DNA from: Luteolibacter rhizosphaerae
GTDB lineage: Bacteria > Verrucomicrobiota > Verrucomicrobiia > Verrucomicrobiales > Akkermansiaceae
Reading direction: 5' to 3'
DNA length: 64,000 nt
Assembly: GCF_025950095.1 (NCBI RefSeq)
Contig: NZ_JAPDDR010000004.1
Location: 434,001 to 498,000, forward strand
This document shows, one piece after another, positions 11,238 to 36,162 of this stretch; position 1 is the stretch's first letter, and each line of letters begins with the position of its first letter. A model generated the notes under the pieces. It was not told the DNA's origin, did no database searches, and was given only the letters and a program-made list of their open reading frames with translations. The position numbers were made by a program, and so were the translations under genes.

Positions 11238-11292
11238 CCCTCGATACCGCTGCCCGGAGCAATCCGAAGCTGATAGCCATTAGGTGAATCCC

Positions 11293-14402: not shown

Positions 14403-15269
14403 TCAGCAGCGGCGTCGGCGCAGCGCCATGCCGGCAGCCGCAGCACCCGTGAGCAGAGCCGTGGAAGGCTCGGGCACCGGCACGAAATTACCGAAGCCGT
14501 TGGTGCTGCCGTTGGTCAGGCCCAGGTTTCCATCGATCGCGGCGAAGATTCCGTGGCTCTCCGGCGCGAGGCCGAACTGCGTGGTCGCGAACCAATCGAA
14601 ACGCACCGAGGAAACGTTGTTATAATAGAGAATCATCCCGCCGTCGGCGGTGGTTTCGAGATGATTCGAGCCTCTCGAGTCGAAGCGTAGGTTGCCATTC
14701 TCATCAACCACGCTGATTTCGCTATTGTTGTGTAGCTGGTAGCCGACCAAGCCGTCGCTGCCGAAGGCCCGAATCGACTCGGATTGGTAGGGCTCGCCGT
14801 CGTGATCGTAGATCAGGAAACGCACGCCGGGCAGCGTGACCGGAACGCTGAAGTTTGAACCGGCTTCGTAGAAAGACATGGACCAGGCGATGCCACCGGT
14901 CTCTTGCGAGTAGTTGCCGTCGTGGCGGTAGTAGACCCCCAGATCGTCGCTTCCGGCGCTGGTGTTGTAGTCCGGGATCCAGCCCACCCACTCGTAGGTG
15001 CTGGTCGGGCGCAGGTTCGAGGTCTCGCCATCGGTCAGGCCGATCTGGGAGACGCGCACGTCGATGCCGATCCCATTGTAGGTGCCTGCATTGGCGAAAT
15101 CCAAGGAGGGCTCGGAGGTGTAGTAGGGCCCGAGCGTCGAATTGTTCGGATACATCTGTGTCGCCGGCTGAACATTGTTGCTGAAGTTCAGGTCGACGTA
15201 GGTCTGGCCCGCGGCGGCTGAAATCAGCGCGGCGAGAGCCAGTGAGGTGTGAGAGGCGACACTTGGCAT
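14403..15269 (-). CDS. PEP-CTERM-anchored secreted protein
   Basis: This encodes 288 aa. The N-terminus is a signal peptide ending in AAAGQT. The C-terminus reads VPVPEPSTALLTGAAAAGMALRRRRC: PEP box, membrane stretch and Arg cluster. The body is beta-rich and full of Asn, Ser, Tyr and Gly (for example DFANAGTYNGIGIDV), with many short loops. The look is that of a surface adhesin or matrix protein rather than an enzyme. It converges with the desaturase operon and lies just downstream of the NRPS genes on the same strand, but its style suggests an independent gene. Confidence 0.82.
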   Translation of the reverse strand: MPSVASHTSLALAALISAAAGQTYVDLNFSNNVQPATQMYPNNSTLGPYYTSEPSLDFANAGTYNGIGIDVRVSQIGLTDGETSNLRPTSTYEWVGWIPDYNTSAGSDDLGVYYRHDGNYSQETGGIAWSMSFYEAGSNFSVPVTLPGVRFLIYDHDGEPYQSESIRAFGSDGLVGYQLHNNSEISVVDENGNLRFDSRGSNHLETTADGGMILYYNNVSSVRFDWFATTQFGLAPESHGIFAAIDGNLGLTNGSTNGFGNFVPVPEPSTALLTGAAAAGMALRRRRC

Positions 15270-15384: not shown

Positions 15385-18300
15385 TCAGGTGAGCTTGGAA
15401 GCGAGCGCGGCGGCCAGTGAAGCGACGTTCTCCTCCTCGAAAAGGGTTAGGTGTCCGCCGGGAACCGGCACGATTTCCAAGCCTTCTCCGGCTAGCTCGG
15501 TCCAGCCGTAATCGGCTGGCCACTCGACCTTGTCGCTGGCGGTCATCGCCTTGAAAAGAGTGATCCGGCCTTGGAAACGGCGGGGCCGGAAGGCCTGCAT
15601 TGCCCGCCAATTCTCCTCGCGGACCTGCACCCGTCGCAGGTCGCTGTGCGCTTCCGCCGGGCCGTTGCCCAGCGCTGCGGCCACCTCCGCCTTCACTCGA
15701 CGGTTGGTCGCTATCCCTTCGGCGATGCGCTCGCGCAGGCGCTCCAGCCGGGAGGGCAGGGGGAGATCGTGCTGCTGCTGCCAGAAGGCGTTGAACCGGC
15801 CGGTGAGCGAGTAGCGCTTGGCGGGCGCGGTCGGGTTGTGGGTGTCGAAGAGGCCGAGGAACTCCACCGTGTAGCCACGCTCCTGGAGGATGCAGGCCAT
15901 CTCGTGGGCGACCACGCCACCGAAGGAGTAGCCCGCAAGGCGGAAGGGCCCGCCGGGATGCAAGGAGAGCAGATTCTCGACATAGGCGGCGGCGGTCTCC
16001 TCGACCGAAGCCGGGGTGATCGGCCCGCTGCTGCTGAGGTCGAGCGACTCGATCGCATGCAGCGGGAAGCGCCGTGGCATCAGTTCCGCCAGGCTGCGGT
16101 AGAAAAGCACGCCACCATCGCCGCCATGCAGGCAGAAGAGCGGGGTGCCATCTCCCGAGTCCGCGAGGGTGACCAGATGTCCTTTGCCTGCGCCGCTTGG
16201 GAGCCCGGTCTCGGCCTGCGGGCAGAGCAGTGCGGCGAGCTTTGCAATCGTGGGATGGCCTAGCAGGGCGGCCAGCGGCAGGGTGCGACCGAACTCGCGG
16301 TTGATCCGGGAGAACATTCGCAGCGCCAGCAGCGAATGCCCGCCGAGCGAGAAGAAGTCGTCATCCCGGCCGATCTCCGGGACCTGTAGTAGTTCGCTCC
16401 ACAGCGCGGCGAGCCTTTGCTCGGTTTCTCCTTCAGGCGCGGCGTAAGGCTTCGCCTCGTTTGGCTTCTTCGCGGGGTCGGGCAGGGCTGCCACGTCGAT
16501 CTTGCCATTGGCGGTAACCGGGAAGCTCTCGATGATGGCCACTCCATCCGGTCGCAGGTAGGCCGGTAGGCTGGCCTCCAGCCATGCGGAGAGGGACGGG
16601 GCATCCAGCAGGCTGCCTTGCTCGGGCAGCACCCAGGCGAGAATGCGTTTGGTCTCCGGGCTATCGCCCCGGACCGCTACCTTCGATTGCCTGACCTCAG
16701 GGTGAGATGCGAGCACCGACTCGATCTCGCCGAGTTCGATGCGGAAGCCCCGCACCTTCACCTGATGGTCGCGGCGTCCGACGAACTCGATCGTGCCATC
16801 GGGCAGCCAGCGGCAAAGGTCGCCGGTCTTGTAAAGCGTAGGGCTGGAGACGAAGCGCTCCGCGGTGAGAGCGGGGTCCTTGTGGTAGCGCAGCGCGAGG
16901 CCGTCACCACCGGTGAGAAGTTCGCCGGGAATGCCGATCGGCACGGCTCGTCCCTGCTCGTCGAGGATCTGCACCGTGGTGTTGGCGATCGGTCGCCCGA
17001 TCGGGATCGAGGCCCGCTCGCAATCCTCCGCGGTGATCCGGTGGCAGGTGGTGAAGGTGGTGTTCTCGGTCGGGCCGTAGCCGTTGATCAGCGCGGTCTC
17101 CGGCAGCGCTTCGAGTGCGCGGCGCACGTGGGGGACCGACAGGACATCGCCCCCTGCCAGCAGGTAGCGTAGGCCCTTCAGCGATTCGAGATGCTCCTCG
17201 ACCATCACTTGGAAGAGGCCCGCGGTCAGCCAGAGCGTGGTGACGCCCTTGTCCCGCACGGCGCTGGCGATCTCGTCGAGGCCGGTGCCTCCGGCAGGAA
17301 TCACCAGCTTGCCGCCGTTCAGCAACGGACCCCAGATCTCGAGCGTGGAGGCATCGAAGGACAGCGGCGCTGCTTGCAGGAAGACATCGTCGGGCGTGAT
17401 CGCGATGAAGTCGCAGCCGCGTACGAGGCGGACCACGCCGCGGTGCGGCACCACCACGCCCTTTGGCTTGCCGGTGGAGCCGGAGGTGAAGAGGAGGTAT
17501 GCCGGATCCTCGGCCCGGATGGTGAGATCGGGAATCCCGTTGAAGGGCGATGCATGACCCGCGGCAGGAATCTCCAGCACCTTGCCCTGCCATGCACCGA
17601 AGGCTTCGCGGCAACCGTCCGCCGCAAGCCCGATGACCGCGTCGCTCTCTTCTAACAGAAGTGCGAAACGTTCGGCTGGATAAGAAGGGTCCAGCGGGAC
17701 ATAGGCTCCACCTGCGAGCAGGATGCCCAGTAGGCCGGTGATCATCTCGGGCGAGGGCTTGGCACACAGCGCGACCGCTTCACCGCCCTTGAGCCCGGCG
17801 GCGTTCAGTTGAGTGGCGATCGCCGAGGCTTCAGCCAGCAACTGATCGTAAGTGAAGCTTTGCTTGCCGTATTCGAGCGCCGTTCGCGAGGGATGAGCGC
17901 GCGCGGTCTTCAGGAAGAGCTCGGCGATGTTCGACTCACGCGGATACTCGCTCCGCTTGCCGCTCCATTCGCCCAACTGCTTCGTCTCCGCTGCTGTGAG
18001 GATCTCGAGCTTTGAGAGCGGCATCGCCGGATTGGCGGCGATGTTCTCCAGCAGCTGCCGGTAATGGCCGAGCATGCGCTCCGCGGTGCTGCGGTCGAAG
18101 AGATCGCTGCTGTAGTCGCAGGTCACCCGCCAGCCTTCCGCTCGCTCGACCATGAAGAAGTGCAGGTCGAAGATCGCGCCCGGTGAGCGCGAGGGAATCG
18201 GGATCAGCTCGACCCCGCCGAAGCGCCCGGCCTTCGCGAAGGAGCGCTGGTGGGTGAAGTTGACCTGGAAGAGCGGGTTGCGGCTCGGATCCCGTGCCGG

Positions 18301-19389
18301 CTTCAAGTCGCGCACCAGACACTCGAAAGGCAGGTCTTGGTTCTCGACGGCCGCCAGCGCGTTGTCGCGGACCTGACGCACCAGGCCCTCGAAGGAAGGG
18401 TCGCCCGAGAGGTCGCTGCGCAGGATCAGCGAGTTGATGAAGACGCCGATCAGTGGTTCAAGTTCGGCCCGCGTGCGTCCTGTGATCGGGGAGCCGACCG
18501 CGATATCCGTGCCGCCGCTGTAGCGATGCAGCAGCACCTTGTACGCCGCGAGCAGTAGATGGTAGAGGGTCGCACCCTCGCGCGCGGCGATGGCTTGCAG
18601 CCGCTGCGTCAGCTCCTTCGGCAGCAGCGCGGAGATCAGCTCGCCGCTCCAGGTCTTTGCCGCAGGGCGGGGCCGGTCGGTGGGCAGATCCAGCTCCGCC
18701 ATCCCCTGCAACTGCTTCCGCCAGAAGCCGAGTTGCTTGGCGATCTCGGGCCCGGCGAGGAAGTCCTTCTGCCACACGCTGAAGTCGCCGTATTGGATCG
18801 GCGGCGGATCCAGCGGGCAGTCACGGCCCTCGAAGTAGGCCTGATAGATCTTCGCCAGTTCCTCCGTCAGCACCGTCATCGACGAGCCGTCGAAGAGCGC
18901 GTGATGAACCGTCACATGCAGGATGTGCGAGCTCGCTGAAAGTCGCACGAGCTCCGCCCGGAATACCGGACCCTTCGCCAGACAGAACGGCCGCTGAGCC
19001 TCGATGCTCCCCAAGCGGTCAGCCTCCGCCTGCCGCTCTTGCTCGGGAAGCTGCGAGACATCCAGCAGTGGCAGGCTGAAGTCCCGCGCCGGCTCCACGA
19101 TCTGCAGCAGCTCGCCATCGTCCTCCTCGAAGTGCGTCCGCAGCGATTCGTGGCGCTCGATGATTGTCGCCAGCGTTCGCTCCAGCAGCGCCACATCCAG
19201 CGGCCCTTCCAAGCGGAAACGCATCGGGATGTTGAACGCGGTGACTCCCGGCTGCAGCAACTCCAGATACCAGAAGACCTGCTGCGCGATCGACGCCGGA
19301 AAGGCCAGCAAGTCCCCCGCGTCATCGGCGGGTGCCGCCGTGGCGTCTTGGGTCTGGGGGGCTTGGCTCATCTCGGGTGAAGGTAGCAT
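15385..19389 (-). CDS. Nonribosomal peptide synthetase, C-A-PCP-TE termination module
   Basis: This encodes 1334 aa from ATG 19389; a TTG at 19398 overlapping the upstream TGA is an alternative start. Domains are: C (about 20-450; HHALFDG, His163), A (about 470-970; TSGSTGKPKG near 634, YGPTENTT), PCP (SLGGHSLLAL, Ser1019), and TE (about 1085-1334; GYSFGG with Ser1155, His1313 in PGGHLTLF). My hand alignment to GrsA gives the A-domain code DALWLGGTFK, which differs at two places from the valine code DAFWIGGTFK; a Val-like aliphatic residue is predicted. The C domain looks LCL type and no epimerase is present. The TE releases the final peptide by hydrolysis or cyclisation. Confidence 0.93.
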   Translation of the reverse strand: MLPSPEMSQAPQTQDATAAPADDAGDLLAFPASIAQQVFWYLELLQPGVTAFNIPMRFRLEGPLDVALLERTLATIIERHESLRTHFEEDDGELLQIVEPARDFSLPLLDVSQLPEQERQAEADRLGSIEAQRPFCLAKGPVFRAELVRLSASSHILHVTVHHALFDGSSMTVLTEELAKIYQAYFEGRDCPLDPPPIQYGDFSVWQKDFLAGPEIAKQLGFWRKQLQGMAELDLPTDRPRPAAKTWSGELISALLPKELTQRLQAIAAREGATLYHLLLAAYKVLLHRYSGGTDIAVGSPITGRTRAELEPLIGVFINSLILRSDLSGDPSFEGLVRQVRDNALAAVENQDLPFECLVRDLKPARDPSRNPLFQVNFTHQRSFAKAGRFGGVELIPIPSRSPGAIFDLHFFMVERAEGWRVTCDYSSDLFDRSTAERMLGHYRQLLENIAANPAMPLSKLEILTAAETKQLGEWSGKRSEYPRESNIAELFLKTARAHPSRTALEYGKQSFTYDQLLAEASAIATQLNAAGLKGGEAVALCAKPSPEMITGLLGILLAGGAYVPLDPSYPAERFALLLEESDAVIGLAADGCREAFGAWQGKVLEIPAAGHASPFNGIPDLTIRAEDPAYLLFTSGSTGKPKGVVVPHRGVVRLVRGCDFIAITPDDVFLQAAPLSFDASTLEIWGPLLNGGKLVIPAGGTGLDEIASAVRDKGVTTLWLTAGLFQVMVEEHLESLKGLRYLLAGGDVLSVPHVRRALEALPETALINGYGPTENTTFTTCHRITAEDCERASIPIGRPIANTTVQILDEQGRAVPIGIPGELLTGGDGLALRYHKDPALTAERFVSSPTLYKTGDLCRWLPDGTIEFVGRRDHQVKVRGFRIELGEIESVLASHPEVRQSKVAVRGDSPETKRILAWVLPEQGSLLDAPSLSAWLEASLPAYLRPDGVAIIESFPVTANGKIDVAALPDPAKKPNEAKPYAAPEGETEQRLAALWSELLQVPEIGRDDDFFSLGGHSLLALRMFSRINREFGRTLPLAALLGHPTIAKLAALLCPQAETGLPSGAGKGHLVTLADSGDGTPLFCLHGGDGGVLFYRSLAELMPRRFPLHAIESLDLSSSGPITPASVEETAAAYVENLLSLHPGGPFRLAGYSFGGVVAHEMACILQERGYTVEFLGLFDTHNPTAPAKRYSLTGRFNAFWQQQHDLPLPSRLERLRERIAEGIATNRRVKAEVAAALGNGPAEAHSDLRRVQVREENWRAMQAFRPRRFQGRITLFKAMTASDKVEWPADYGWTELAGEGLEIVPVPGGHLTLFEEENVASLAAALASKLT

Positions 19390-19394
19390 GGAGT

Positions 19395-22300
19395 TCAAAG
19401 CTTCCGGCGATAAGCGTCGCGGTTGACGCGCTGGATGGTCGCCGCCGCCGGAGCTGGTTCGGGTTCTGCCGTCAGGTCCGCCGCAATCGCCGAGATGTTC
19501 CGATGCCGGAAGATCTGCGCCGGCGTCAGCCCCAGCCCCGCCCGCGTGGCCCGCGTGCTGATCTGGAAAATCAGGATCGAGTCGCCGCCGAGCTCGAAGA
19601 TGTCGTCACCCGTGCCGATCTCGCGCAGCCCCAGTACCTGCTTCCAAATCTCCACCAACTGCCGCTCGGTTTCGTTCTTCGGCGCCGCGATGTCACGACC
19701 GCTGCTCTCCATCTGCTCGCCCGGAGCCGGCAGCGCCTTGCGGTCCACCTTGCCATTCGGCGTCAGCGGGAAGCTCTCCAGCACCACGAAGGAGGTCGGC
19801 ACCATGTAATCCGGCAGCTTCGCCGCCAGATGCTTCCGTAGCGCCGCTGGTAGCTCTCCACCGGGACCCGAAGGCTTCTCATGATGCGGCACGTTCGCCA
19901 GCGGAGCAGGCGTCGACTGGATCGGCCACAGCGGGAAAGCCCCGCTGCCGATCGGCAGGAAGATCGCATCAATCAGGCCCGCCGTGCCATTCCCACGCCA
20001 GCGGACATGAGCACGATAACCCGTCGCCTCCGCCACCGCGAAGAGCGCCTCCGCCGATAGGGCATTTCCGGGCACTCCCGGCGCGAAGGGCAGGGGACCA
20101 TGCTCCGGCGAATGCTCCAGGGCCCGCAGGAAACCCAGCGGCGAATTCAGCCGCACATCCGGAATGCCCGCGATCGCCAGCTCATCCGGACACTCCGCCA
20201 GGATCGCTTCCAGCTGCTCCAGATTCAGCCGCTCCCACTGCCGCCACTTCGTCACCACCTGCACCGCCGGCTTCTCGCCGATATGCAAGATCACATCGTA
20301 ATGGTAAGTCGTCGTCTCGTTCGCCATCCGCCCGCGACGGAGCTGGATTTCGACATGCGCCAACCCCGGGATATCCACACGGTCGAACCAAGCCGGATCG
20401 ATCGAAAGCTCCGTTTCGCGCGCCAAACGCTGCGCGATCTTCTCGCGCAGTTGCCCGCAGCTCGTGCCATCCGGAGCCCGCTCGCGCAGGATCTCCGCAT
20501 GATGTGCCGCCAGCAAAGCGTTGCTCTGGATGTCGCCTAGGAAGATCCTCCCGCCCGGCTTCAGCGTGCGCGCCGCCCCTTGCAGCACGCGCACCAGATA
20601 ATCAGAGTGCGGGAAATACTGCGCCACCGAGTTGATCACCACCGTGTCGAAATACTGCTCGGGAATGTCCGAGAAGTCGTCCGCCGGGCGATGGAACAGC
20701 TTCACGTGCGGATAGTTCAGCTCCTGCTTCAGGGCCGCGATGGCCACCTCGGAAATGTCCGCCGCCCAGTAGCACTCCGTCTCTGTCGCGAAGCGCGAGA
20801 GGATCTGGCCGGTGCCGCAGCCGATCTCGAAAATACGACGCGGGCCGTACTTCCGCAGCCGGTTCGCCGTCATGTCGATCCACTCCACCACCTGCGCATC
20901 GATGTCCGTGGCTCCCGCCCAACCGGCGATCACCGAGTCCAAGCGGTCCAGCTTGCCGCCGCCGGATTGATCGATCGCGGACTTGTAGAGCAGATCCCAC
21001 TGGTCCTGCCACAGCGCGGTGCCGTCGCCTTCACCGGAATTGCCGGGGCGCACGTAGGCAACCAAACGGCCATCCTGCACATGCGCCACCGCCTGCGCCA
21101 CCGCAGGGTGCGCGGAGAGATGCGTCTCGATGTCACCCAGCTCGATCCGGAAACCACGCACCTTCACCTGGTGATCCATGCGCCCCAGGCACTCGATGCT
21201 GCCATCCGGCAACCAGCGCGCCAGATCGCCCGTACGATAGAGCTTCCCGCCTTGCAGCGCGGTGCTCACGAAGCGGTCCGCCGTCAGATCAGGCCGCTCA
21301 TGGTAACCCTGCGCCAGACCATCACCGCCGATCAAAAGCTCCCCGGCGATTCCCACCGGCTGCGGCTGCATCGCCGCATTCACGATATACACCTGCGTGT
21401 TATCGATCGGGCTGCCGATCAGCACCGGACCCTCACCGGCGAAGACCTGCGCGGTCGTCGACCAGATCGTCGTCTCCGTCGGGCCATAGACATTCCAAAC
21501 CTCGCCACAGATCGGCGCCAGGCGATCCACCAGATCCCGCGGCACGGCTTCACCGCCGACCAAGGCCTTGAAGCCCTCCTTGCCCGTCCAGCCTGCTTCT
21601 AACAGCAGCCTCCAGGTCGAGGGCGTCGCCTGCAGCACCTTGATCCCGTGGCGGTTGATCTCATCCGCCAGGCGGTTGCCGTCGATCACCGTGTCGCGCG
21701 TGGCGATCACCGTCTCCGCACCCGTGCTCAGCGGCAGGAAGATCTCCAGCCCCGCGATGTCGAAGGACAGCGTCGTCACCGCCAGCAGCACATCGTCCGG
21801 CGCGAGACCAGGCTCGCGGCGCATCGAGTTCAGGAAGTTCACTACCGCACGGTGCGGCACGCGCACCCCCTTCGGCCGGCCGGTCGAGCCGGAAGTGAAG
21901 ATCACATAGGCCGTATCTTCCGCGGATTTTTCCACCGCCACGAAGCCCGTCGCGGAGCCCGGGATCTCATCGCTCAGCAGCACCACCGCCTGCGAGGAAG
22001 GCAGCTCGCGGTGCAGCGAGGTCTGCGAGAGGATCACCGGCATGTGCGCATCCTCCACCATGAAGGCCAGCCGCTCCGCCGGGAAGCTCGGGTCCATGGG
22101 CACATAGGCCGCACCGCACTTCAAGATCGCCAGCAAGCCCGCGACCATGTCGGTCGAGCGCTCCAGATGGATGCCCACCAGATCGCCGCGCTTCACTCCC
22201 GCGTTCTGCAGGCGTGCCGCGATCGCCGTCGCGCGCAGTTCCAGTTGCGAGTAGTTCAGCGCCTGCCCGCCGCAGCGCAGCGCCGTCTTCTCCGGCACCC

Positions 22301-25300
22301 GGCCCGCGATCGATGACACCAGGCAATCCAGCGTCGCCTCGCGCGGATACTCGCGTTCGGTCGCATTCCATTCGCCCAGCACCCGCGCGCCTTCCTCCGG
22401 AGTCAGGATCGGCAGGGCTTGCAGCGCCGCATCGCCATTCGCGATCGCGCTCTCGATCAGTTGCTCGAAGCAGCCGAGCCAGCGCCGGATCGTCGCTGCA
22501 TCGTGCAGATCGGTGTTATACTCGCACTCCACGATCATCCGCTCGTCCGTCTGCACGAGGTTGAAGAAGAGATCGAAGTTTACGTGGCGCTTCGGGTTCG
22601 TCTCCACGTCGAAGCTCAGCCCGTCGAAGGCGATGCGATCCGCACCGGACTTGTCGATGTTGAACATCACCGTCACCAGCGGCAACCGGCTCGTGTCTCG
22701 CGGCAGGGTCAGCTTCTTCAGCAGGCTGCCGAAGGTGTAGTCCTGGTAATCGTAGGCCTCCAGCACCTGCTCCTTCACCTCGGCGGCGAAGGCGCGGAAG
22801 GGTCGCTCCGCTGCGGCGTTCAGGCGCAGCGGCAGGAAGTTCAGGCAATGGCCCACCAGCTCATCGCGGCCCACCCGAGTCTGTCCCGCGGCAGGCACGC
22901 CGATCACCAGATCCTCTTGGCCTGTCAGGCGATGCAGCAGGGTCGCAAAGGTTCCGAGCAAGGTTGCAAACAAGGTGCCGCCTAGTTTCGGCGAGGCCTT
23001 CTTCAGTCGTGAATAGCGGTCCGCATCCAGCGTGATCGCCTCCATCGCGCCGGCATAGGTCTTCAGCTGCGGGCGCGGGCGATCCGTCGGCAGCTCCAGC
23101 ACCGGCGCTCCGCTTTCAAATTTCGCCACCCAGAAGCTCTCCGCCGCCACACGCTCCGCGGAGTCCTTGTTAGAGACCTCCAGTCGCGCGTAGTCGGCGA
23201 AGGACATCGCTGGCGGCAGCATCGGCAGCCGCTCGGCCTTGCGGGCGTTGTAGGCCTCCGCCAGCTCCATCAGGATCATGCCGAAGGACCAGCCGTCGCA
23301 CACCAGGTGATGTGCGGTGAAAAGTAGCTCGTGCGTGTCTGCGGACAGTCGCGCCAGTTGTAGGCGCAGCAGCGGACCTTCCGTCAGTTTGAAGGGCGAG
23401 CGCGCCTCCTCTTCGCGCGCTTGCGACCAGTGCATGCCGCGCACATCCGGCGTCAGCGCGGAGAAGTCGTGCTCCGCGATTTCCAGTTCGCGTGGGGCGG
23501 CGTGGAAGATCTGCTGCTGGCCATCTTCGCTGAAGGTGCTGCGCAGTGCCGGGTGGCGCACCACCAGATCGAGCAGCGCCGCACGCAGCGCCGCGGTATC
23601 CAGCCCGCCCTCGAAGCGGATCACGTTTGATTCGTTGTAGGAGCAGTTCGCTTCGTCGCCCATCATCAGCGAGTGGAAGATCTCGCGCTGCGCCTCCGTC
23701 GTCGGAGAGACATCGCGGCGCGGGAAGACGCTCGGCGCATCGCAGACCACCGTCGATGCCGGCAGGAATCCAGCCGCCTGCATGTCCGCCACCGCTTCCG
23801 TGAAGCCGCGGATGATCCGGTCGAAGTCCTCGTCGCCATGGGCCGTCGTGAAGTAGAGCGGACGTCCCTCCCACACGTGCACCCCGCGCTCGCGCAGGAA
23901 GTACCACAGCAGGCTCGCATGTTTCAGGTCCGCCGCATGTTCGATCACCGCGTAGGCGCTGAAGTGCGGCAAGCGGATCGGCACGCCGATCGTCGCGAAA
24001 TACTCGTTCAGGGTCCGGCACAGGCGCTCCACCCGCTCCGTCACCTCGATCTGCAGGCGTGGGCCTTCGCCCTTCAGGTGCTCCACCACGCGCCATGCCG
24101 CGGCCAGCGCCAGCGGATGCCGCACGAAGGTGCCTGCGAAGAAGGTCACCCCCACCTCCGGGAAGCTATCGTCGCCGTAGTTCCAGGCACCGCCGTCCAG
24201 CGCGTCCATGTATTCACGCTTTCCGGCCAGCACGCCGATCGGCATGCCTCCGCCGATCACCTTGCCGTAGGTCGCCATGTCCGCCTCGATCCCGAAGTAG
24301 GCCTGCGCCCCGCCGGGATGGCAGCGGAAGCCTGTCACTACTTCATCGAAGATCAGCGCCGTGCCGGATGCCTTCGTGATCGCCCGCACCTCGTGCATGA
24401 ACTCGCGCGGCTGCAGTCCCGGGGCCCGGCTCTGCACCGGCTCCACCATCACCGCTGCCAGTTCATGCGCATGCGCCCGCAGGATCTCCAGCGAGGCCGG
24501 GTCCGCGTAGTCCAGCACCAGCATGTTCTCCACCAGCGATTGCGGGATGCCCGGCGCGATCGGCTGCGCCTTGTAGACACCGTCCACCCACGCGCCGCGC
24601 ACCAGCACTTCCTCGAACATGCCGTGGTAGTCGCCCGTGAAGTAAGCGATCCGTGTCCGGCCCGTGATCGTCCGCGAGAGGCGCATCGCGGCCATCACCG
24701 CTTCGGAGCCGGTGTTGCAGAAGGTCGCGCGATCCATCCGGGTCAGCTCGCAGATCGCTTTCGCCAGCTTGCCCGCGATCGGCGATTGCGGCCCGATCTC
24801 GATGCCCGTCTTGAGCTGCTTCTCCACCGCCTCGATCAGCCAGTCCGGAGAGTGGCCGAAGAAGTAGGTCCCGAATCCCATCGTGATATCGACATACTCG
24901 TTCCCGTCCAGGTCCCAGATCTTCGCGCCTTTGGAGCGGGCGGACACGATCGGATAGACCATCTCCTTCCACAGCGACTTGAAGCCGGAGACCGCACGCG
25001 GGTCCGCGTAGTGATCACGGTGTTCCGCCGTGTAGGCCTTCGAGGAGGCCGTCTTGCGCACATAGCGCGCGATCAGTTCGTCCAGCGCCTTCTGCTGCGT
25101 CGCGGTCAGTCCGCCGTTCTCACCCTTGTCGATCGGCTTGTAGGGGCCGAATCGCGTATTGGCGGAGACATTGCGGCTATGGCCCTCGGGCCATTTCACC
25201 GCGGGCAGTTGGCTCGTCGCCGCTTCGCTCCGCGCCGGGGCCACCGCCCCGTTTGCCGCGCGCTGGTTCTCCAGCAGCGCCTGCATCAGGTGGATCTGAT

Positions 25301-28300
25301 TCGCCATCAGTTGCTCGATGGTCGAGCTGCCGTTGACCGGCGCGCTCATGCCCGGCAGAACGGCCACCGGTGCTGCCGCTACTACGGGAGTCGTAGTCAA
25401 AGGCGCGGCATCGGCGGGCATTTCGGCAGCCAGATGCTTGGCCAGTGCCACCACGGAGGACAGCTCGCCCAGCATCTGGCGGAAGGTCACCTTCACCCCG
25501 AAGCGCGATTGGACCGCTTGGCTCGCTTGGGTGAGGAACAGCGAATCGAAGCCGAGTTCCGTGAAGGTGGCGGCATCATCCTCCACCGCCACCCCGGACA
25601 GATCCAGGACGATGGCGCGGAGTTTCGTGGCGAGATCGGGAGTGCGGTCGGCGGGGGCAGACATGGCAGGGGGAGGAGTGGAGAGGGGGAGAACAGGAGC
25701 GGCAGCCGCGGGCACGGCAGCCGGAGCAGCAGCGGCATCGGGCTCGCCGGACTTGTCGATCCAGTAGCTCTGTCGCTCGAAGGGGTAGGTCGGGAGATGC
25801 AGGCGGGCACGCTCTTGCCTGGCAAAGAAAGTGTTCCAGTCCGGAGCACATCCGGTCTTCCACAGCTCGCCCGCGGCGTTCAGCAGGTCGGCCAGATCCG
25901 CGGAGGCTGAGGGCAGCGTGGAGATTACCGTGCTCGCCTTCTTGTCCGGATGCTGGCGCGCGAAGGGCGCAAGTGCTTGTCCGGGACCAACCTCTAACAA
26001 GATCAGTCCCTCTTCCGCGAAGGCCGTTGCCAGTGCATCGGTAAAGCGCACCTCGTGGCGCAGTTGCCGTGCCCAGTAGCCCGGGTCGGCCAGCGTTGCC
26101 GCGTCCATCGCCTTGCCCGTGCAGGTGGAGATCCACGGGATTGCCGGGGCATTCGCGCGCACCTTCGCCGCCTCCGCGGTGAATGGCTCCACGATTGGCT
26201 CCATCATCGCGGAGTGGAAGGCGTGCGAGGTCTTCAACGCCCGGCAGGCGATCTTCTTGTCCTCTAGCTCGCTTTGGAAGGCCGCCACCGCTTCATGCGA
26301 GCCGGATACCGTGCAGAGCTTCGGGCTGTTGATCGCCGCCAGATGGATTCCCTCGGGCAGCACCAACTCGTCCGCGCCTTGGCGCACCGCCAGCATCGCC
26401 CCGGAGGGTAGATCCTGCATGAAGCGCGCCCGCGTTGCCAGCAGGGCCAGCGCATCCGGCAGGGTGAATGTTCCGGCCAGCACCGCGGCGACGTACTCGC
26501 CGATGCTGTGACCGATCAACAGCGAGGGCGTGATGCCCCAGGAGATCCACAGCCTCGCCAGCGCATACTCCGTTACGAAGATGCAGGGCTGTGTCAGCCA
26601 GGTTTGGTGAATGCGTTCTTCCGCGGCAGCTTGCTCCTCCTCGCCGGGATAAAGTGTCTCGCGGATATCCAGATCCAGATGTCGCTGCAGGATCGCCGCG
26701 CACTCGTCCACTGCATCGCGGAAGGCGGCTTCCCCCAGCAACTCGCGGCCCATGTTGAGATACTGCGAGCCTTGGCCGGGGAAGAGGAATGCCACCTTTG
26801 CCGGCTTCGCGGCTGCGGCGGACTTCACCGGTTCGCGCAGCTTCGCGATCGCTTCCTCCACGCTCGCTGCCACCAGCTGCCTGCGGAAGGGGAATGCCTT
26901 GCGACCCGTCGCCAGCGTGTAGGCCACGTCGGACAATGAGATCTCCGGATTCAGGTGTCCCGCCAGATTCGCGGACATCGCCTCCAGCGCCGTCGCCGTC
27001 TTCGCCGAGAGCACCAGCAACTGCTGCTTCCTTCCCTCACTCGTCGGAGCGATCTCCGGAGCCTCTTCCATCACCACGTGCGCATTGGTGCCGCCCACGC
27101 CGAAGGCGCTCACACCCGCGATTCGCGGTGTGCCATTGCGTTCCCATGCCTTCTCTTCCGCCACCGGGGCGAGGGGGCTGTTAGAAAAATCGATCCGCGG
27201 ATTCGGCGCGCTGAAGTGTAGCAGCGCCGGGATCTTCCCGTGGCGGAATTGCTGGATCGTCTTGATCAGCCCCGTCACGCCCGCCGCCACGTCCAGATGG
27301 CCGATGTGCGTCTTGCCGGTGCCGATCGCGCAGTAGCCGTTGCCGACCGCACCGCCATCACGGAATGCCTTCGTTAGCGCTGCGATTTCGATCGGATCAC
27401 CCAGCGGGGTGCCGGTGCCGTGCGCCTCGATGTAGGAAACCTCCTGCGGGCTCACGCCGGCCGAAGCTTGCGCCAGCGCGATCACCTCGGCCTGTGCGTT
27501 CAGGCCGGGTGCGGCGAAGCCGATCTTGTCGGAGCCGTCGTTGTTCACTGCCCAGCCCTTGATCACGGCCAGGATCGGATCGCGATCCGCCACCGCTTCG
27601 CTCAGGCGCTTGAGCAGCACCACGCCGCAGCCATGGCCGAAGACCGTGCCGTTCGCCTTCTCGTCGAAGGCGCGCACCTTGCCATCGCCGGAGACCATGC
27701 CTTCCTCGGTGTAGAGGTAGTCGCGCTGCTGCGGGAAGCTGATCGATACACCGCCCGCCAGCGCCATGTCGCACTGGTAGGTCAGCAGCGAGGTGGCCGC
27801 CTGGCAGATCGCCACCAGCGAGGTGGAGCAGGCGGTCTGCACCGTCATGCTCGGCCCGCGGAGGTTCAGCTTGTAGCTCACCCGCACCGGCATGAAGTCC
27901 TTGTCGTTGCCGAGCATCGTCTGGTACTCGGCTACCTGATAGTTCTTCGCCAGTTCCTTGGCCTTGCCCAGGTTGTGCAGCAGATAGGTATTCAGGCTCA
28001 GCCCGGCATACACGCCGATCATGCCCGGGTAGGCATGCGGATCGTAGCCGCCGTGCTCGATCGCTTCCCATGCACACTCGAGGAAGATCCGGTGCTGCGG
28101 GTCCATCAGCTCCGCTTCCTTCGGATAAATCCCGAAGAAACCTGCATCGAACAGGTCCGGCTTTTCCAGCGTGCTACGGGCCCCGACGTATTTCGCCCCG
28201 TCCTGATCCGTGCGGCTGTCGAAGCGCGTGATGCAGTCCTTGCCTGCGATCAGGTTCTGCCAGAACTCATCGGGGTTGGCAGCGCCGGGAAAACGTCCGG

Positions 28301-28349
28301 ACATGCCGATCACGGCGATCGCTTCGGGCGGGGGGAGTTCGTCGTTCAT
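19395..28349 (-). CDS. Hybrid PKS-NRPS: KS-AT-ACP-aminotransferase-C-A(MT)-PCP
   Basis: This encodes 2984 aa from ATG 28349; that start gives the usual KS opening (IAVIGMSGRFPGA). Domains are: KS (Cys174 in TACSTS; EAHGTGT), AT (GHSIGEY, Ser615; HAFH box typical of malonyl-CoA), ACP (GFDSL, Ser936), PLP class III aminotransferase (Lys1363 in TYGKVIGGG), C (His1681 in HHLVCDG), A (TSGSTGRPKG near 2151) with a methyltransferase inserted before the A C-terminal lobe (IFEIGCGTG near 2506), and PCP (Ser2924). No KR, DH or ER is present, so the beta-ketone is left for transamination, as in McyE. The A code DILQLGVIWK is one change from a glycine code (DILQLGLIWK). Product inference: malonyl extension, beta-amination, then an N-methylated small residue. 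Confidence 0.95.
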   Translation of the reverse strand: MNDELPPPEAIAVIGMSGRFPGAANPDEFWQNLIAGKDCITRFDSRTDQDGAKYVGARSTLEKPDLFDAGFFGIYPKEAELMDPQHRIFLECAWEAIEHGGYDPHAYPGMIGVYAGLSLNTYLLHNLGKAKELAKNYQVAEYQTMLGNDKDFMPVRVSYKLNLRGPSMTVQTACSTSLVAICQAATSLLTYQCDMALAGGVSISFPQQRDYLYTEEGMVSGDGKVRAFDEKANGTVFGHGCGVVLLKRLSEAVADRDPILAVIKGWAVNNDGSDKIGFAAPGLNAQAEVIALAQASAGVSPQEVSYIEAHGTGTPLGDPIEIAALTKAFRDGGAVGNGYCAIGTGKTHIGHLDVAAGVTGLIKTIQQFRHGKIPALLHFSAPNPRIDFSNSPLAPVAEEKAWERNGTPRIAGVSAFGVGGTNAHVVMEEAPEIAPTSEGRKQQLLVLSAKTATALEAMSANLAGHLNPEISLSDVAYTLATGRKAFPFRRQLVAASVEEAIAKLREPVKSAAAAKPAKVAFLFPGQGSQYLNMGRELLGEAAFRDAVDECAAILQRHLDLDIRETLYPGEEEQAAAEERIHQTWLTQPCIFVTEYALARLWISWGITPSLLIGHSIGEYVAAVLAGTFTLPDALALLATRARFMQDLPSGAMLAVRQGADELVLPEGIHLAAINSPKLCTVSGSHEAVAAFQSELEDKKIACRALKTSHAFHSAMMEPIVEPFTAEAAKVRANAPAIPWISTCTGKAMDAATLADPGYWARQLRHEVRFTDALATAFAEEGLILLEVGPGQALAPFARQHPDKKASTVISTLPSASADLADLLNAAGELWKTGCAPDWNTFFARQERARLHLPTYPFERQSYWIDKSGEPDAAAAPAAVPAAAAPVLPLSTPPPAMSAPADRTPDLATKLRAIVLDLSGVAVEDDAATFTELGFDSLFLTQASQAVQSRFGVKVTFRQMLGELSSVVALAKHLAAEMPADAAPLTTTPVVAAAPVAVLPGMSAPVNGSSTIEQLMANQIHLMQALLENQRAANGAVAPARSEAATSQLPAVKWPEGHSRNVSANTRFGPYKPIDKGENGGLTATQQKALDELIARYVRKTASSKAYTAEHRDHYADPRAVSGFKSLWKEMVYPIVSARSKGAKIWDLDGNEYVDITMGFGTYFFGHSPDWLIEAVEKQLKTGIEIGPQSPIAGKLAKAICELTRMDRATFCNTGSEAVMAAMRLSRTITGRTRIAYFTGDYHGMFEEVLVRGAWVDGVYKAQPIAPGIPQSLVENMLVLDYADPASLEILRAHAHELAAVMVEPVQSRAPGLQPREFMHEVRAITKASGTALIFDEVVTGFRCHPGGAQAYFGIEADMATYGKVIGGGMPIGVLAGKREYMDALDGGAWNYGDDSFPEVGVTFFAGTFVRHPLALAAAWRVVEHLKGEGPRLQIEVTERVERLCRTLNEYFATIGVPIRLPHFSAYAVIEHAADLKHASLLWYFLRERGVHVWEGRPLYFTTAHGDEDFDRIIRGFTEAVADMQAAGFLPASTVVCDAPSVFPRRDVSPTTEAQREIFHSLMMGDEANCSYNESNVIRFEGGLDTAALRAALLDLVVRHPALRSTFSEDGQQQIFHAAPRELEIAEHDFSALTPDVRGMHWSQAREEEARSPFKLTEGPLLRLQLARLSADTHELLFTAHHLVCDGWSFGMILMELAEAYNARKAERLPMLPPAMSFADYARLEVSNKDSAERVAAESFWVAKFESGAPVLELPTDRPRPQLKTYAGAMEAITLDADRYSRLKKASPKLGGTLFATLLGTFATLLHRLTGQEDLVIGVPAAGQTRVGRDELVGHCLNFLPLRLNAAAERPFRAFAAEVKEQVLEAYDYQDYTFGSLLKKLTLPRDTSRLPLVTVMFNIDKSGADRIAFDGLSFDVETNPKRHVNFDLFFNLVQTDERMIVECEYNTDLHDAATIRRWLGCFEQLIESAIANGDAALQALPILTPEEGARVLGEWNATEREYPREATLDCLVSSIAGRVPEKTALRCGGQALNYSQLELRATAIAARLQNAGVKRGDLVGIHLERSTDMVAGLLAILKCGAAYVPMDPSFPAERLAFMVEDAHMPVILSQTSLHRELPSSQAVVLLSDEIPGSATGFVAVEKSAEDTAYVIFTSGSTGRPKGVRVPHRAVVNFLNSMRREPGLAPDDVLLAVTTLSFDIAGLEIFLPLSTGAETVIATRDTVIDGNRLADEINRHGIKVLQATPSTWRLLLEAGWTGKEGFKALVGGEAVPRDLVDRLAPICGEVWNVYGPTETTIWSTTAQVFAGEGPVLIGSPIDNTQVYIVNAAMQPQPVGIAGELLIGGDGLAQGYHERPDLTADRFVSTALQGGKLYRTGDLARWLPDGSIECLGRMDHQVKVRGFRIELGDIETHLSAHPAVAQAVAHVQDGRLVAYVRPGNSGEGDGTALWQDQWDLLYKSAIDQSGGGKLDRLDSVIAGWAGATDIDAQVVEWIDMTANRLRKYGPRRIFEIGCGTGQILSRFATETECYWAADISEVAIAALKQELNYPHVKLFHRPADDFSDIPEQYFDTVVINSVAQYFPHSDYLVRVLQGAARTLKPGGRIFLGDIQSNALLAAHHAEILRERAPDGTSCGQLREKIAQRLARETELSIDPAWFDRVDIPGLAHVEIQLRRGRMANETTTYHYDVILHIGEKPAVQVVTKWRQWERLNLEQLEAILAECPDELAIAGIPDVRLNSPLGFLRALEHSPEHGPLPFAPGVPGNALSAEALFAVAEATGYRAHVRWRGNGTAGLIDAIFLPIGSGAFPLWPIQSTPAPLANVPHHEKPSGPGGELPAALRKHLAAKLPDYMVPTSFVVLESFPLTPNGKVDRKALPAPGEQMESSGRDIAAPKNETERQLVEIWKQVLGLREIGTGDDIFELGGDSILIFQISTRATRAGLGLTPAQIFRHRNISAIAADLTAEPEPAPAAATIQRVNRDAYRRKL

Positions 28350-28351
28350 CG

Positions 28352-30148
28352 TTAGCGGGGGGAAGGGCGGCGGAAGCGGGCGAGTCCGGCTTGTTGCAGC
28401 CTCGCCCGGTCTTGGGCGGCGGAGCTGCTGGCAGCGGCTTGGGGGGAAAGGAATTCGGCCAGGGACTTCGCGCTCGGGCGGGCGAAGAGATCGGTGATCG
28501 CCAGATCCTTGCCGCTCATCTCGCGCAGGCGCACATGCACCACCGCCAAGTGGATCGAGGTGCCGCCCAGATCGAAGAAGTTCGCCTCGGGATCGGAAAC
28601 CGCTTGGCCCAGGATCTCGCTCCAGAGCTGGAGAACGCGGCCTTCCCACGTGTCGGTGGAGATCGCCGTTTCTGGAGTGGATCGCTCCTCTGCGGCCAAG
28701 GCCAGCCGGTCGATCTTGCCGTTCGGGGTGAGGGGAAAGCTTTCGCGCTGAATGAATTCGCCGGGGATCATGTAGGCCGGCAGCGTGGTGGCTAGATGCG
28801 CTTTCAGGTCCGCGGGCGCACCTTGGACGTGTGCCGTCAGCCGTCCGTCCTTCGCGATCACCACCGCCTCCACCACGGACTCGTGACTGGCCAGTGCCAG
28901 TTCGATTTCCCCGAGTTCGATCCGGAAGCCGTTCACCTTCACCTGATGATCGGCGCGGCCTCGGAATTCCAAAGTTCCGCAGGGCAGGCGGCGGGCCAGA
29001 TCGCCGCTGCGATAGATTCCGCCTGCCAGCGCGAAGGCCTTCGCTGTCCTCTCCGGGTCATTCAGATAGCCGCCGCCGAGGCCGGCTCCGCCGATGCAGA
29101 GCTCACCCAGTTCGCCATCCGGCACGATCGCCAGATCTTCGTCGCGGATGGTCACCGTCACGTTCGGGATCTCATGACCCAGCGGCACGAAACCGAAGGC
29201 ATCGAGGTTCCGGCCGTGCAGGCGGTAGAAGGCGCAGATGTCCGTGCACTCGGTCGGACCGTAGGTGTTCACCACCTCCGCCGCGCCGGATTCAAGCCAC
29301 GAGCGCAGGCGCGGGATCGAGATCGGTTCACCGCCCAGCACCGCGAATCGCAGCGAGATCAGCGCGGTCGCGTCCGTTTCAACCAGTGGATAGAAGGCGC
29401 TCGGCGTGCAGTTGATCAGGGTGATGCCGTGTTGCCGGATCAGCCCGTTGATACGGGAGATGTCGTAGGTTCCGTAGTCATCCAACACCAGCACGCCACC
29501 GCTCAGCAGCGGGGCGAAGAAGTTCTTCTGCGTCAGGTCGAAGCTCGGCGAGCTGATCACCAGCGTCCGGTCGCTCGCGCCGAGGTTCAACTCATGGGCA
29601 TACCATTCGAGCAGGTTGGCGAAGCCGCGGCGGAAGACGGCGGCTGCCTTCGGTTTTCCGGTCGAGCCGGAGGTGAAGATGGCGTAGAGCGGATCGTCAG
29701 GCGTCGCGTAGCTGCGCACCGGGGCTGCATCACCCTTCGCCTCCTCGGAGATCGCGAGCACCTGCGGGGCAGGGAAGCGTGCTCCGAGATCCTCGCGGCT
29801 GATCACGATCTCCAGCCCGGCGGAGGCGATCATGTGCTCCAGTCTTTCGGCGGGGTAGGCGGGATCGAGCGGCACGTACGCGGCCCCGGACTTCACCACG
29901 GCCAGCAGCGCCACGATCAGTTCGATCGAGCGGTCCAAGCCGATCCCGATGTAGCGGCCGGGCCCGGCCCCGAGTTCTTGGAGCTTCTTCGCGAGCGCGT
30001 TGGCACGGGCTTCAAGCTCGCCCGCGCTGATCGAGCGGGTGCCGGCGATAACTGCGGTCTCGTCGGGATTACGCACGGCGCGCGCCTCGAAGGCGGCGAG
30101 TAGACGGTCGGGCAGGAGAGCTTCCAGCTGCTGGGGGGCGGCGGTCAT
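28352..30148 (-). CDS. Nonribosomal peptide synthetase loading module, A-PCP
   Basis: This encodes 598 aa from ATG 30148; the frame is open upstream to 30313, but that part is not domain-like. The A domain has TSGSTGKPK near residue 158, FDLTQKN, NTYGPTECTD, SGDLARR and the A10 lysine in PLTPNGKID. The PCP serine is Ser531 in DLGGTSIHL. There is no condensation domain, so it loads the first unit onto the assembly line. It ends 2 bp before the PKS-NRPS start. Asp235 is kept, which argues for an alpha-amino acid substrate. My hand-read code DLKNVGTDIK matches no code I know. The C-terminal tail is Arg/Ala-rich and may dock with the next protein. Confidence 0.92.
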   Translation of the reverse strand: MTAAPQQLEALLPDRLLAAFEARAVRNPDETAVIAGTRSISAGELEARANALAKKLQELGAGPGRYIGIGLDRSIELIVALLAVVKSGAAYVPLDPAYPAERLEHMIASAGLEIVISREDLGARFPAPQVLAISEEAKGDAAPVRSYATPDDPLYAIFTSGSTGKPKAAAVFRRGFANLLEWYAHELNLGASDRTLVISSPSFDLTQKNFFAPLLSGGVLVLDDYGTYDISRINGLIRQHGITLINCTPSAFYPLVETDATALISLRFAVLGGEPISIPRLRSWLESGAAEVVNTYGPTECTDICAFYRLHGRNLDAFGFVPLGHEIPNVTVTIRDEDLAIVPDGELGELCIGGAGLGGGYLNDPERTAKAFALAGGIYRSGDLARRLPCGTLEFRGRADHQVKVNGFRIELGEIELALASHESVVEAVVIAKDGRLTAHVQGAPADLKAHLATTLPAYMIPGEFIQRESFPLTPNGKIDRLALAAEERSTPETAISTDTWEGRVLQLWSEILGQAVSDPEANFFDLGGTSIHLAVVHVRLREMSGKDLAITDLFARPSAKSLAEFLSPQAAASSSAAQDRARLQQAGLARFRRPSPR

Positions 30149-30407
30149 GCTGTGGGGGCGACGGGGAGATGAGGGGGAAATTAGAAAAAATTCGGGGGCG
30201 CTAACAAGGGCGGGGCGGGGCTTGTCGGCCGATCGGTCATTTCGTTTTCGGAATGCGGCAGCGGCTACGCAAACAGATAAGTGATTCGTTCCTTGTTCTA
30301 TCATGAACCGCAAAATCGGGCATTACGCGATTTCGTAGCGGCGCAGATTCTAAAAATTCCTTGTTGGATGCCACCTAAAATTTTAACATCGCCGTGCTGT
30401 TTACGGA
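30149..30407. other. Divergent intergenic region between the NRPS and exopolysaccharide operons
   Basis: This 259-bp gap is AT-richer than its surroundings, especially 30340-30400, where AAAATT/AATTTT runs occur. Both large operons are transcribed away from it, so it should hold two promoters. I could not fix a convincing -35/-10 pair on either strand. Confidence 0.45.
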
Positions 30408-31655: not shown

Positions 31656-31675
31656 TACGACCCCTGTCCCCCGCC

Positions 31676-32269
31676 ATGAACATCAAGCTTTTCCTCATCA
31701 TCGCCGCCATGATCGGTGCTTTCGCCGCCCTGACCGGCGGGGCCTCGGGCCAAGCTCCCGCAGGCGGCCGCGCGTCGGGCACGATCGGCAGCATGGATAC
31801 CGTGGAGATCCGGGTTTTCCGGGAGGAAGAGCTTACCACGATGGGCCAGCTTTCGCCGAACGGCACCATCACCATGCCCCTGATCGGCGCGGTGAAGATG
31901 GCCGGCCTCACGACCGATCAGGCCGCCGCCGCGATCACCGCAAAGCTGAAGGACGGCTTCCTCGTGAATCCCCAGGTCAGTGTCAGCATCGAGGCCCGCG
32001 TCCGCCGCAGCATCACCGTGCTCGGTCAGGTCCAGAACTCCGGCGTCTTTGAACTCCCGGCGAATCGCAAGCTGACCGTGGTGGAGGCCATCGGCATGGC
32101 GGGCGGCGCGACCCGCATCGCAAATACGAAGAAAATCACGTTAAAGCGTAATACCGGAGGCAAGCCTCAGGTGAGCATTCTCAACCTGAAAGACATCACT
32201 TCCGGCAAGACCGCGGACATCCCGCTGCGGGACGGCGACGTGCTAACCGTTCCCGAAAGCCTGTTCTGA
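31676..32269 (+). CDS. Polysaccharide export protein (Wza-like, Poly_export + SLBB)
   Basis: This encodes 197 aa with the signal sequence MNIKLFLIIAAMIGAFAALTGGASG. The Poly_export domain follows (DTVEIRVFREEEL, SPNGTITMPLIGAVKMAGLT, VNPQVSVSI), and then an SLBB-type segment (RRSITVLGQVQNSGVFELP...VVEAIGMAGGAT). It is about half the length of E. coli Wza and lacks the extra SLBB repeat and the C-terminal outer membrane helix. It probably forms a periplasmic adaptor ring and relies on the preceding barrel protein for the outer membrane pore. It sits 20 bp after that gene. Confidence 0.88.
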   Translation: MNIKLFLIIAAMIGAFAALTGGASGQAPAGGRASGTIGSMDTVEIRVFREEELTTMGQLSPNGTITMPLIGAVKMAGLTTDQAAAAITAKLKDGFLVNPQVSVSIEARVRRSITVLGQVQNSGVFELPANRKLTVVEAIGMAGGATRIANTKKITLKRNTGGKPQVSILNLKDITSGKTADIPLRDGDVLTVPESLF

Positions 32270-32293
32270 TCCTTTCTCCGACCATATCCCCCC

Positions 32294-34507: not shown

Positions 34508-34606
34508 TGGATTCCCCGGCCCATTTTCTGCTAGTTTTCAAACCAATGACGGCTCCCCCGGTCGTCATCGGATCCCCCGGTCCACATCCCCCTATCCCCC
34601 CGAACC

Positions 34607-36124: not shown

Positions 36125-36162
36125 CGAACCGCCGAACCTTGAGCGTGGAGACTACAACGGGA

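Follow-up and report, generated by a model that had tools for sequence, protein, structure and literature searches.

Several assembly lines that join polyketide synthase (PKS) and nonribosomal peptide synthetase (NRPS) modules carry an aminotransferase of their own. They include the mycosubtilin/iturin synthetase MycA, in which the chain is a fatty acyl group, as well as McyE and the microginin and puwainaphycin lines, whose likeness to the line described here is one of general design. In the related statine-type module, an amino acid is combined with a malonyl unit and a ketoreductase (KR). Here, we examine an aminotransferase-containing PKS-NRPS line encoded at positions 15385-30148, on the minus strand, of a 64,000-nucleotide stretch from Luteolibacter rhizosphaerae (Verrucomicrobiota, Akkermansiaceae; assembly GCF_025950095.1, contig NZ_JAPDDR010000004.1, positions 434,001 to 498,000), the whole of which is hereafter called the window. 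On balance, we favour the reading that this compact, amino-acid-primed line makes a short vicinal-diamine peptide and works with an adjoining polysaccharide export cassette.

The line consists of three tightly linked genes, which encode an adenylation domain with a peptidyl carrier protein (A-PCP), a long protein with ketosynthase, acyltransferase, acyl carrier protein, aminotransferase and condensation domains followed by a methyltransferase-bearing A domain and a carrier (KS-AT-ACP-AMT-C-A(MT)-PCP), and a C-A-PCP unit ending in a thioesterase (TE). An initial annotation, made from the letters and their open reading frames (ORFs), had proposed these domains, their order and their coordinates, all of which were borne out by Pfam and by a reading of the ORFs. 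The Pfam E-values of the main domains range from 1e-110 (C) to 2e-11 (PCP1), all above the cut-offs. KS, AT, ACP and the class III AMT stand together upstream of a C domain, and the Pfam lists of the line proteins (16 families for P0002, the long protein) contain no KR, dehydratase or enoylreductase. A single full-length copy of the line is present in the 6.2-Mb assembly (31 contigs), five further matches being short, and the closest AMT among the matches listed is that of Haloferula sp. BvORR071 (94%).

The catalytic residues of these domains are conserved. The Cys/His/His of KS and the Ser and HAFH of AT are invariant in the alignment of 17/17 ingroup loci, and the Ser/His of TE are kept in all 15 ingroup loci with a TE in view. 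The Lys and Asp of AMT are invariant in 99 of 99 aligned AMTs, and the domain matches the aminotransferase structures of mycosubtilin MycA over 451 residues (E 1e-136). The methyltransferase (MT) inserted in A2 retains its S-adenosylmethionine (SAM) motif. The initial annotation had named the loss of catalytic residues in KS, AT or AMT as a reason to abandon its proposal; looked at by alignment, these residues are all kept. Its malonyl extension without a KR agrees with an AT of the HAFH type, which we take to be the malonyl signature, and with the Pfam list. It had also deduced an amino acid starter from Asp235 in the starter A domain: this residue is found in all three A domains, and the starter domain scores 366.7 bits against the amino acid adenylation model TIGR01733 (cut-off 317.4).

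The pocket letters of the A domains were read by alignment to an A domain of the window, at positions that follow the gramicidin synthetase numbering. The code of A1, DLKNVGTDI, is of the homoserine (Hse) type. In the parts of the sources covered, DLKNVGSDVK and DLKNLGTDVK are codes of Hse/Hsl domains (PMC12283262), and DLKNFGSDVK of the scytocyclamide line is called Hse by antiSMASH 4.1, the product scytocyclamide A containing L-Hse (PMC7524897). A1 fits the pattern DLKN[VFL]G[ST]DV closely and is two or three positions off from these three published codes. A Hse-type starter, DLKN[VI]G[TS]DI, is found in 17/17 ingroup loci. The code of A2 reads DILQLGVIW or DILQVGVIW, by the alignment used, and both were taken as Gly-type; DILQLGLIW is a Gly code. 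Among the 16 ingroup loci in which A2 was seen, 11 have a Gly-type and 5 an Ala-type code, and an MT follows in each. Finally, A3 carries the Val-type code DALWLGGTF and is Val-like in 15/15 ingroup loci seen; DALWIGGTFK is listed among common Leu/Ile/Val codes in the covered parts of PMC12283262.

The starter is thus best read as homoserine, which would make the unit 3,4-diamino-6-hydroxyhexanoic acid. The Gly code of A2 together with the methyltransferase points to sarcosine (Sar), and the predicted product is (3,4-diamino-6-hydroxyhexanoyl)-Sar-Val. By arithmetic from this predicted structure, the linear form would be C14H28N4O5, with [M+H]+ at 333.213, and the cyclised form would appear at 315.203. 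The logic of a 3,4-diamino acid, with which the initial annotation had begun its peptide, is supported and sharpened to a homoserine starter, the unit itself remaining a prediction. The N-methyl small residue that it placed next now reads as N-methyl-Gly, or N-methyl-Ala in some relatives, from the A2 code and the MT, and its Val-like last residue agrees with the code of A3 in the window and in the ingroup.

In the proposed mechanism, A1 would load homoserine onto PCP1, and KS would accept the aminoacyl group and add one malonyl unit. With no KR in the line, the built-in AMT would convert the beta-ketone at C3 to an amine, giving a 3,4-diamino-6-hydroxyhexanoyl thioester, to which C2/A2-MT would add N-methylglycine and C3/A3 would add Val. 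TE would then release the peptide as a free acid or in cyclic form, or else pass it to another acceptor. That A-PCP feeds KS directly is argued from a relative (L025) in which C-A(Thr-type)-PCP-KS-AT-PCP-AMT-C-A-PCP-TE is a single frame of 4005 residues, with C-A-PCP fused to KS-AT-PCP-AMT. Besides substrate use, we infer the stereochemistry, the mode of release and a product that ends up with the surface polysaccharide.

The cassette at 30408-37536 brings together Poly_export, a tyrosine autokinase, a polyprenyl sugar transferase and a flippase. The initial annotation had seen no transporter in the cluster, which is true of the three line genes and fails for their surroundings, since the export cassette starts 259 bp upstream on the other strand. 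Its remark that the cluster has no phosphopantetheinyl transferase (PPTase) likewise calls for an addition: two PPTase-superfamily genes above cut-off lie elsewhere in the genome, and family N7 lies downstream of the line in six ingroup relatives (G127, G036, G131, G013, G143, and G082), its member in G036, the one scanned, matching PPTase models. Matches to the porin, Wza, Wzc, and WcaJ are found beside the line in 14/14 ingroup genomes tested, and the flippases of 11 of 15 loci, window included, cluster as one family. Among the window genes scanned, there is no polymerase and no glycosyltransferase. Beyond the cassette, the only family common to at least four of the 15 flanks is N10 (4/15), both scanned members of which match group 1 glycosyltransferases. 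The cassette is therefore the constant partner of the line, and glycosyltransferases are not constant there.

This partnership was followed through 195 genomes of the same family, its own included, with cut-offs of E<1e-90 for the AMT line, E<1e-20 for the porin and E<1e-150 for Wzc, on which the porin and Wzc counts depend. The AMT line is present in 29 genomes and the porin in 30, with both in 28, so that the porin is found in 28/29 genomes with the line vs 2/166 without it. The genome with a line and no porin is 61% complete (G133). The porin occurs without the line in G043 (33% identity) and in G114, where a line could be off the contig, whose end comes 74 bases after the porin match. Porin and line, or part of the line, share a contig in 25 of the 28 genomes, G135 being split, and within genus g13 their presence agrees in 43/43 genomes (12 with both, 31 with neither). 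Wzc is found in 27 genomes, corresponding to 25/29 with the line vs 2/166 without (G114 and G125).

The same cassette also adjoins a second kind of line. Seven relatives (G019, G026, G039, G079, G085, G093, and G183) encode a large protein that combines KS, AT, AMT, C, A (Val-type), PCP, and TE. Next on its strand come porin-Wza-Wzc-WcaJ, and Wzx was seen in six of these relatives. The tandem-type line of G085 is split between contigs; among the other six, which were tested, an FkbH domain (TIGR01686, above cut-off) is present at the N-terminus in 6/6. Domains of the FkbH type load glyceryl units; a glyceryl starter is predicted for these lines, with a 3-amino-4,5-dihydroxy acid as the result. 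The order FkbH-PCP-KS-AT-PCP-AMT-C-A(Val-type)-PCP-TE, then the same cassette, was observed in G019 (L117:6643-17187, minus strand) and five other tandem-type relatives. FkbH is also present in the lines of G011 and G024, which do not adjoin the porin, and in G048 a Hse-Gly line without a detected MT is divergent from the same cassette. The pairing of one cassette with lines that differ in build and in orientation argues against synteny alone.

Beyond the family, AMT relatives were collected by a scan of genome contigs, the best 80 of 184 confirmed being retained. Starters were tallied for the window and 78 of these 80 loci, L024 and L031 being without an AMT stretch of sufficient length. The A domain nearest upstream of the AMT is amino-acid-type in 46 of the 79 loci, fatty-acid-ligase-type in 9 and not seen in 24. 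The amino-acid-type starters comprise 22 of Thr type, 12 of Hse type, 7 Val/aliphatic, 4 of Pro type, and 1 other. Starter codes beginning with DMG or DMY are, in our own reading, probably of the fatty-acid-ligase type. The nine ligase-type rows are all cyanobacterial and, with three unseen rows, lie on one side of a branch of the AMT tree with a Shimodaira-Hasegawa-like approximate likelihood ratio test (SH-aLRT) value of 96. The tree was rejected as proof of substrate because starters switch: 11 changes are required to place the five seen starter classes on it (32 over 83 rows with 'unseen' as a class).

The placement of Poly_export relative to the AMT was determined for 50 of the 80 loci (49 genomes), with the stronger Poly_export matches listed. 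Five cyanobacterial genomes and the Luteolibacter marinus locus (G195), which belongs to the window's own group, are set apart from the distant bacteria. Among the matches listed, Poly_export lies within 27 kb in 16/46 distant AMT loci vs 2.0 expected from gene density, and within 20 kb in 14 vs 1.5 expected, whereas the cyanobacterial AMT loci give 0/15 vs 0.3 expected. The 16 loci belong to four Bosea, Methylobacterium, Bradyrhizobium, other alpha- and gammaproteobacterial metagenome-assembled genomes (MAGs), two Acidobacteria, an Eremiobacterota, and a Planctomycetota record. All of them fall on one side of an AMT-tree branch (21 rows, SH-aLRT 96), where they make up 16 of the 19 loci examined. 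The recurrent neighbours clustered from 20 contexts include, among the scanned representatives, Poly_export/SLBB, Wzz, Bac_transf, Polysacc_synt flippase, and Wzy_C, and further group 2 and WecG-type glycosyltransferases, PPTases, and a Cupin_8 protein. In G228, a Wza gene and a Wzz-like gene (24.1 bits, below the cut-off of 25.5) lie between the line's own genes. As a control, C-domain matches outside AMT lines were considered in 18 genomes; among the matches listed, they have no Poly_export within 27 kb, with the exception of a stretch in G217 and a below-cut-off match in G228, each on the contig of the AMT line. These genomes were chosen partly for looking linked to exopolysaccharide, and the control gives a hint rather than a fair rate. 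The genetic coupling of the line to polysaccharide export has good support within the family and in a single broad clade elsewhere, and is absent in the rest examined. The peptide might be bound to the polysaccharide, leave the cell together with it, or merely share its regulation.

Two of these recurrent neighbours may be described further. PPTase families near the distant lines are represented by F2 (L187:8117-8836, 9 genomes) and F7 (L166:6301-7032, 4 genomes), with one representative each confirmed. The Cupin_8 protein (F5, L167:2568-3545, 6 genomes) could be a tailoring hydroxylase.

Several observations weigh against a joint function of line and cassette. Co-occurrence within one family is confounded by shared descent, which Fisher values ignore, and these are given no significance reading here. 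With respect to the sugar of the cassette, a shared glycosyltransferase family lies within the fetched flank in only 4/15 loci. For G011 and G024, the porin match is weak (36 and 34%) and on another contig than the line. In G125, a real exception, Wzc-WcaJ-Wzx are kept, yet neither line nor porin occurs in the genome, and the fetched 20 kb contain no Wza. Among the distant loci, 30/46 have no Poly_export within 27 kb, with 0/27 outside the one clade having it (matches listed; many contigs are short), and 7 of the 19 clade loci are close kin (Bosea and kin), so that the events are not independent. The line could accordingly make an ordinary diffusible 3,4-diamino peptide, for instance a metal-binding or protease-inhibiting one, next to which the polysaccharide genes lie by inherited synteny only. 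A type I TE at the end of the line would suit such a product, a neighbourhood common to all 14 ingroup flanks is what descent would give, and both the 27 distant loci and the FkbH-type lines located away from the cassette agree with it. We nevertheless regard this explanation as somewhat unlikely: one and the same cassette is adjoined by two differently built lines, Hse-type divergent and FkbH-type tandem; polysaccharide genes recur beside the lines of a separate clade spanning several phyla; Wza- and Wzc-like genes are placed between the line's own genes in G228; and no other gene family is widely common to the flanks.

As for the chemistry, a further point of the same kind is that A1's exact code occurs in no paper found by the literature search. 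Codes are imperfect predictors, A1 departs from the three published Hse codes, and the starter codes of L017 and L018, which are near relatives, diverge (Hse-type vs Thr-type). A1 might thus take another amino acid, such as Thr or Ser, or be promiscuous, and the side chain of the diamino unit would then differ; the code differences are conservative, however (V/F/L, T/S, I/V), and the Hse-type pattern is uniform in the ingroup, which makes another starter rather improbable. A more distant prospect is that the 4-amino-3-keto intermediate mostly cyclises, to a tetramic acid or a pyrrolidinone, or is processed otherwise, and that no 3,4-diamino peptide accumulates. Gamma-amino thioesters are able to form five-membered rings as a matter of general chemistry, but the complete conservation of the AMT active-site Lys and Asp, together with that of the downstream C domains and of the Gly/Ala-MT and Val modules, makes this outcome very improbable. 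To return to the favoured reading, line and polysaccharide export system remain neighbours in most relatives that have the line, which suggests that the two work together.

Table 1. Features of the assembly line, the export cassette and their immediate surroundings, in window coordinates
Feature	Position	Strand	Remarks
P0003, loading protein A-PCP	28352..30148	-	ATG 30148, stop at 28352; A ~28694-30091, PCP ~28448-28639
P0002, KS-AT-ACP-AMT-C-A-MT-PCP	19395..28352	-	ATG 28352 overlaps P0003 stop (ATGA); stop at 19395
KS	27045..28325	-	Cys/His/His present
AT	25944..26789	-	GHSIGE and HAFH (malonyl-type)
ACP	25425..25637 (approximate borders)	-	LGFDSL
Class III aminotransferase (AMT), mycosubtilin MycA type	23757..25112	-	Lys and Asp kept
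Condensation domain C2	22389..23714	-	HHLVCDG
A2, Gly-type DILQ[V/L]GVIW, with inserted SAM methyltransferase	19749..22307	-	MT core ~20502-20846
PCP2	19479..19661	-	GGDS
P0001, C-A-PCP-TE	15385..19398	-	A3 code DALWLGGTF (Val-type); TE Ser/His present
Outer-membrane beta-barrel porin (BBP2_2), first cassette gene	30408..31655	+	Scores below cut-off against models of PEP-CTERM-associated porins
Wza-type Poly_export protein with SLBB domain	31676..32269	+	Poly_export 75.1 vs cut-off 28
Wzc-type chain-length determinant/tyrosine autokinase (BY-kinase)	32294..34507	+	TIGR01007 117.3 vs cut-off 108.05
WcaJ-type polyprenyl-phosphate sugar transferase	34607..36124	+	Bac_transf 223 vs cut-off 27
Wzx-like flippase	35980..37536	+	Polysacc_synt 36.6 vs cut-off 28.2; overlaps previous gene; start codon not settled
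Intergenic region between divergent transcription units, 259 bp	30149..30407	.	Two promoter-like matches, which do not demonstrate function
PEP-CTERM protein just downstream of TE gene	14403..15269	-	tblastn matches in 9/14 ingroup flanks; possible associate only

A number of other features were observed at the locus and in its relatives. The antisense ORFs 30375-31235(-) and 36121-37503(-) are conserved by tblastn and lie opposite the family-matched plus-strand porin and flippase; they were rejected as genes. On the plus strand at 10051-14251, the window encodes a haem-oxygenase-like iron redox enzyme, a fatty acid desaturase, a DUF3419 protein, and one unknown, a gene group present only in G071 among the 14 downstream flanks searched. 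In G013 and G160, the TE gene is adjoined by an ORF (L109:2-1303 and L114:3-1757), part of which resembles an A domain and has the unusual code DMLGPGGLI. Elsewhere in the genome, a second NRPS condensation domain (G000:C1:449298-450611; L122) is located in a frame of 1970 residues. Finally, lines whose AMT is 89-90% identical to that of the present Haloferula/Luteolibacter-type line occur in MAGs titled Akkermansia muciniphila (L010 and L031), titles that may be wrong.

A broader proposal, speculative and somewhat doubtful for now, is that such PKS-NRPS lines form an unrecognised and widespread class, whose amino-rich acyl-peptides become linked to surface polysaccharide or leave the cell with it, as part of a sugar-peptide coat. 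The peptide would open with a 3,4-diamino acid of the Hse, Thr, Val, or Pro type, or with a 3-amino-4,5-dihydroxy acid where the line is FkbH-loaded, and the two types of line would alternate beside one cassette in Akkermansiaceae. Luteolibacter soli, for example, has clusters described simply as NRPS or type I PKS (PMC11427321), which are candidate counterparts. The favoured reading of the line, if right, would give such clusters, reported merely by class, a testable function. It would also add a vicinal-diamine building block, made with an aminotransferase in place of the ketoreductase of a statine-like module, and it would connect nonribosomal assembly with the export of surface polysaccharide across several phyla.

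Among the known systems, the mycosubtilin/iturin enzyme MycA has an AMT homologous over its whole length, which by analogy acts on a carrier-bound beta-ketoacyl chain; that chain is fatty acyl there, whereas the present line has an Asp235-bearing A domain to load its starter. The laxaphycin/scytocyclamide and other cyanobacterial aminotransferase lines share the succession of KS, AT, ACP, and AMT, then NRPS modules. In the covered parts of PMC7524897, the scytocyclamide line also has a homoserine A domain of similar code, but in an internal module, and its starter is a hexanoate loaded by a fatty acyl-AMP ligase (FAAL). The nine fetched loci with DMG/DMY starters are cyanobacterial, and the cyanobacterial AMT loci differ further in their lack of a nearby Poly_export among the matches listed. 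A1 is not the fatty-acid ligase or acyl starter that marks fatty-acyl-primed beta-amino lines (mycosubtilin, laxaphycin, and microginin).

The domain order is not new, since the amino-acid-primed design was catalogued in 2013 as A-CP-KS-AT-CP-Aminotran_3 proteins of Pedobacter heparinus (C6XWU5) and Thiorhodococcus drewsii (G2E5C9), which share the amino-acid-type loading, the malonyl extension and the class III aminotransferase (PMC3870968, in the parts covered). They differ in being described by predicted monomer strings only (e.g. Nrp-Mal-Gly-Pk); the 3,4-diamino unit does not appear in the parts covered, and the word polysaccharide is absent from the text (PMC3870968). A full-length match to a described pathway, the other finding that would have told against the initial annotation, did not emerge from a literature search of limited coverage with few subscription journals. 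Nor did that search, in sources seen in part, yield a description of a link between NRPS and polysaccharide export. On the side of the cassette, the porin, Wza, and Wzc match models of the XrtA/XrtB PEP-CTERM exopolysaccharide systems, and a PEP-CTERM protein adjoins, but the system-specific models score below their cut-offs here (TIGR03027 95.2/180, TIGR03007 105.3/278.85, TIGR03016 57.3/90.85, and TIGR03014 42.1/275 bits). Statine-type modules likewise extend an aminoacyl starter once by malonyl to a gamma-amino acid; P0002 has no KR after the malonyl extension, and the aminotransferase standing in its place would give an amine instead of a hydroxyl.

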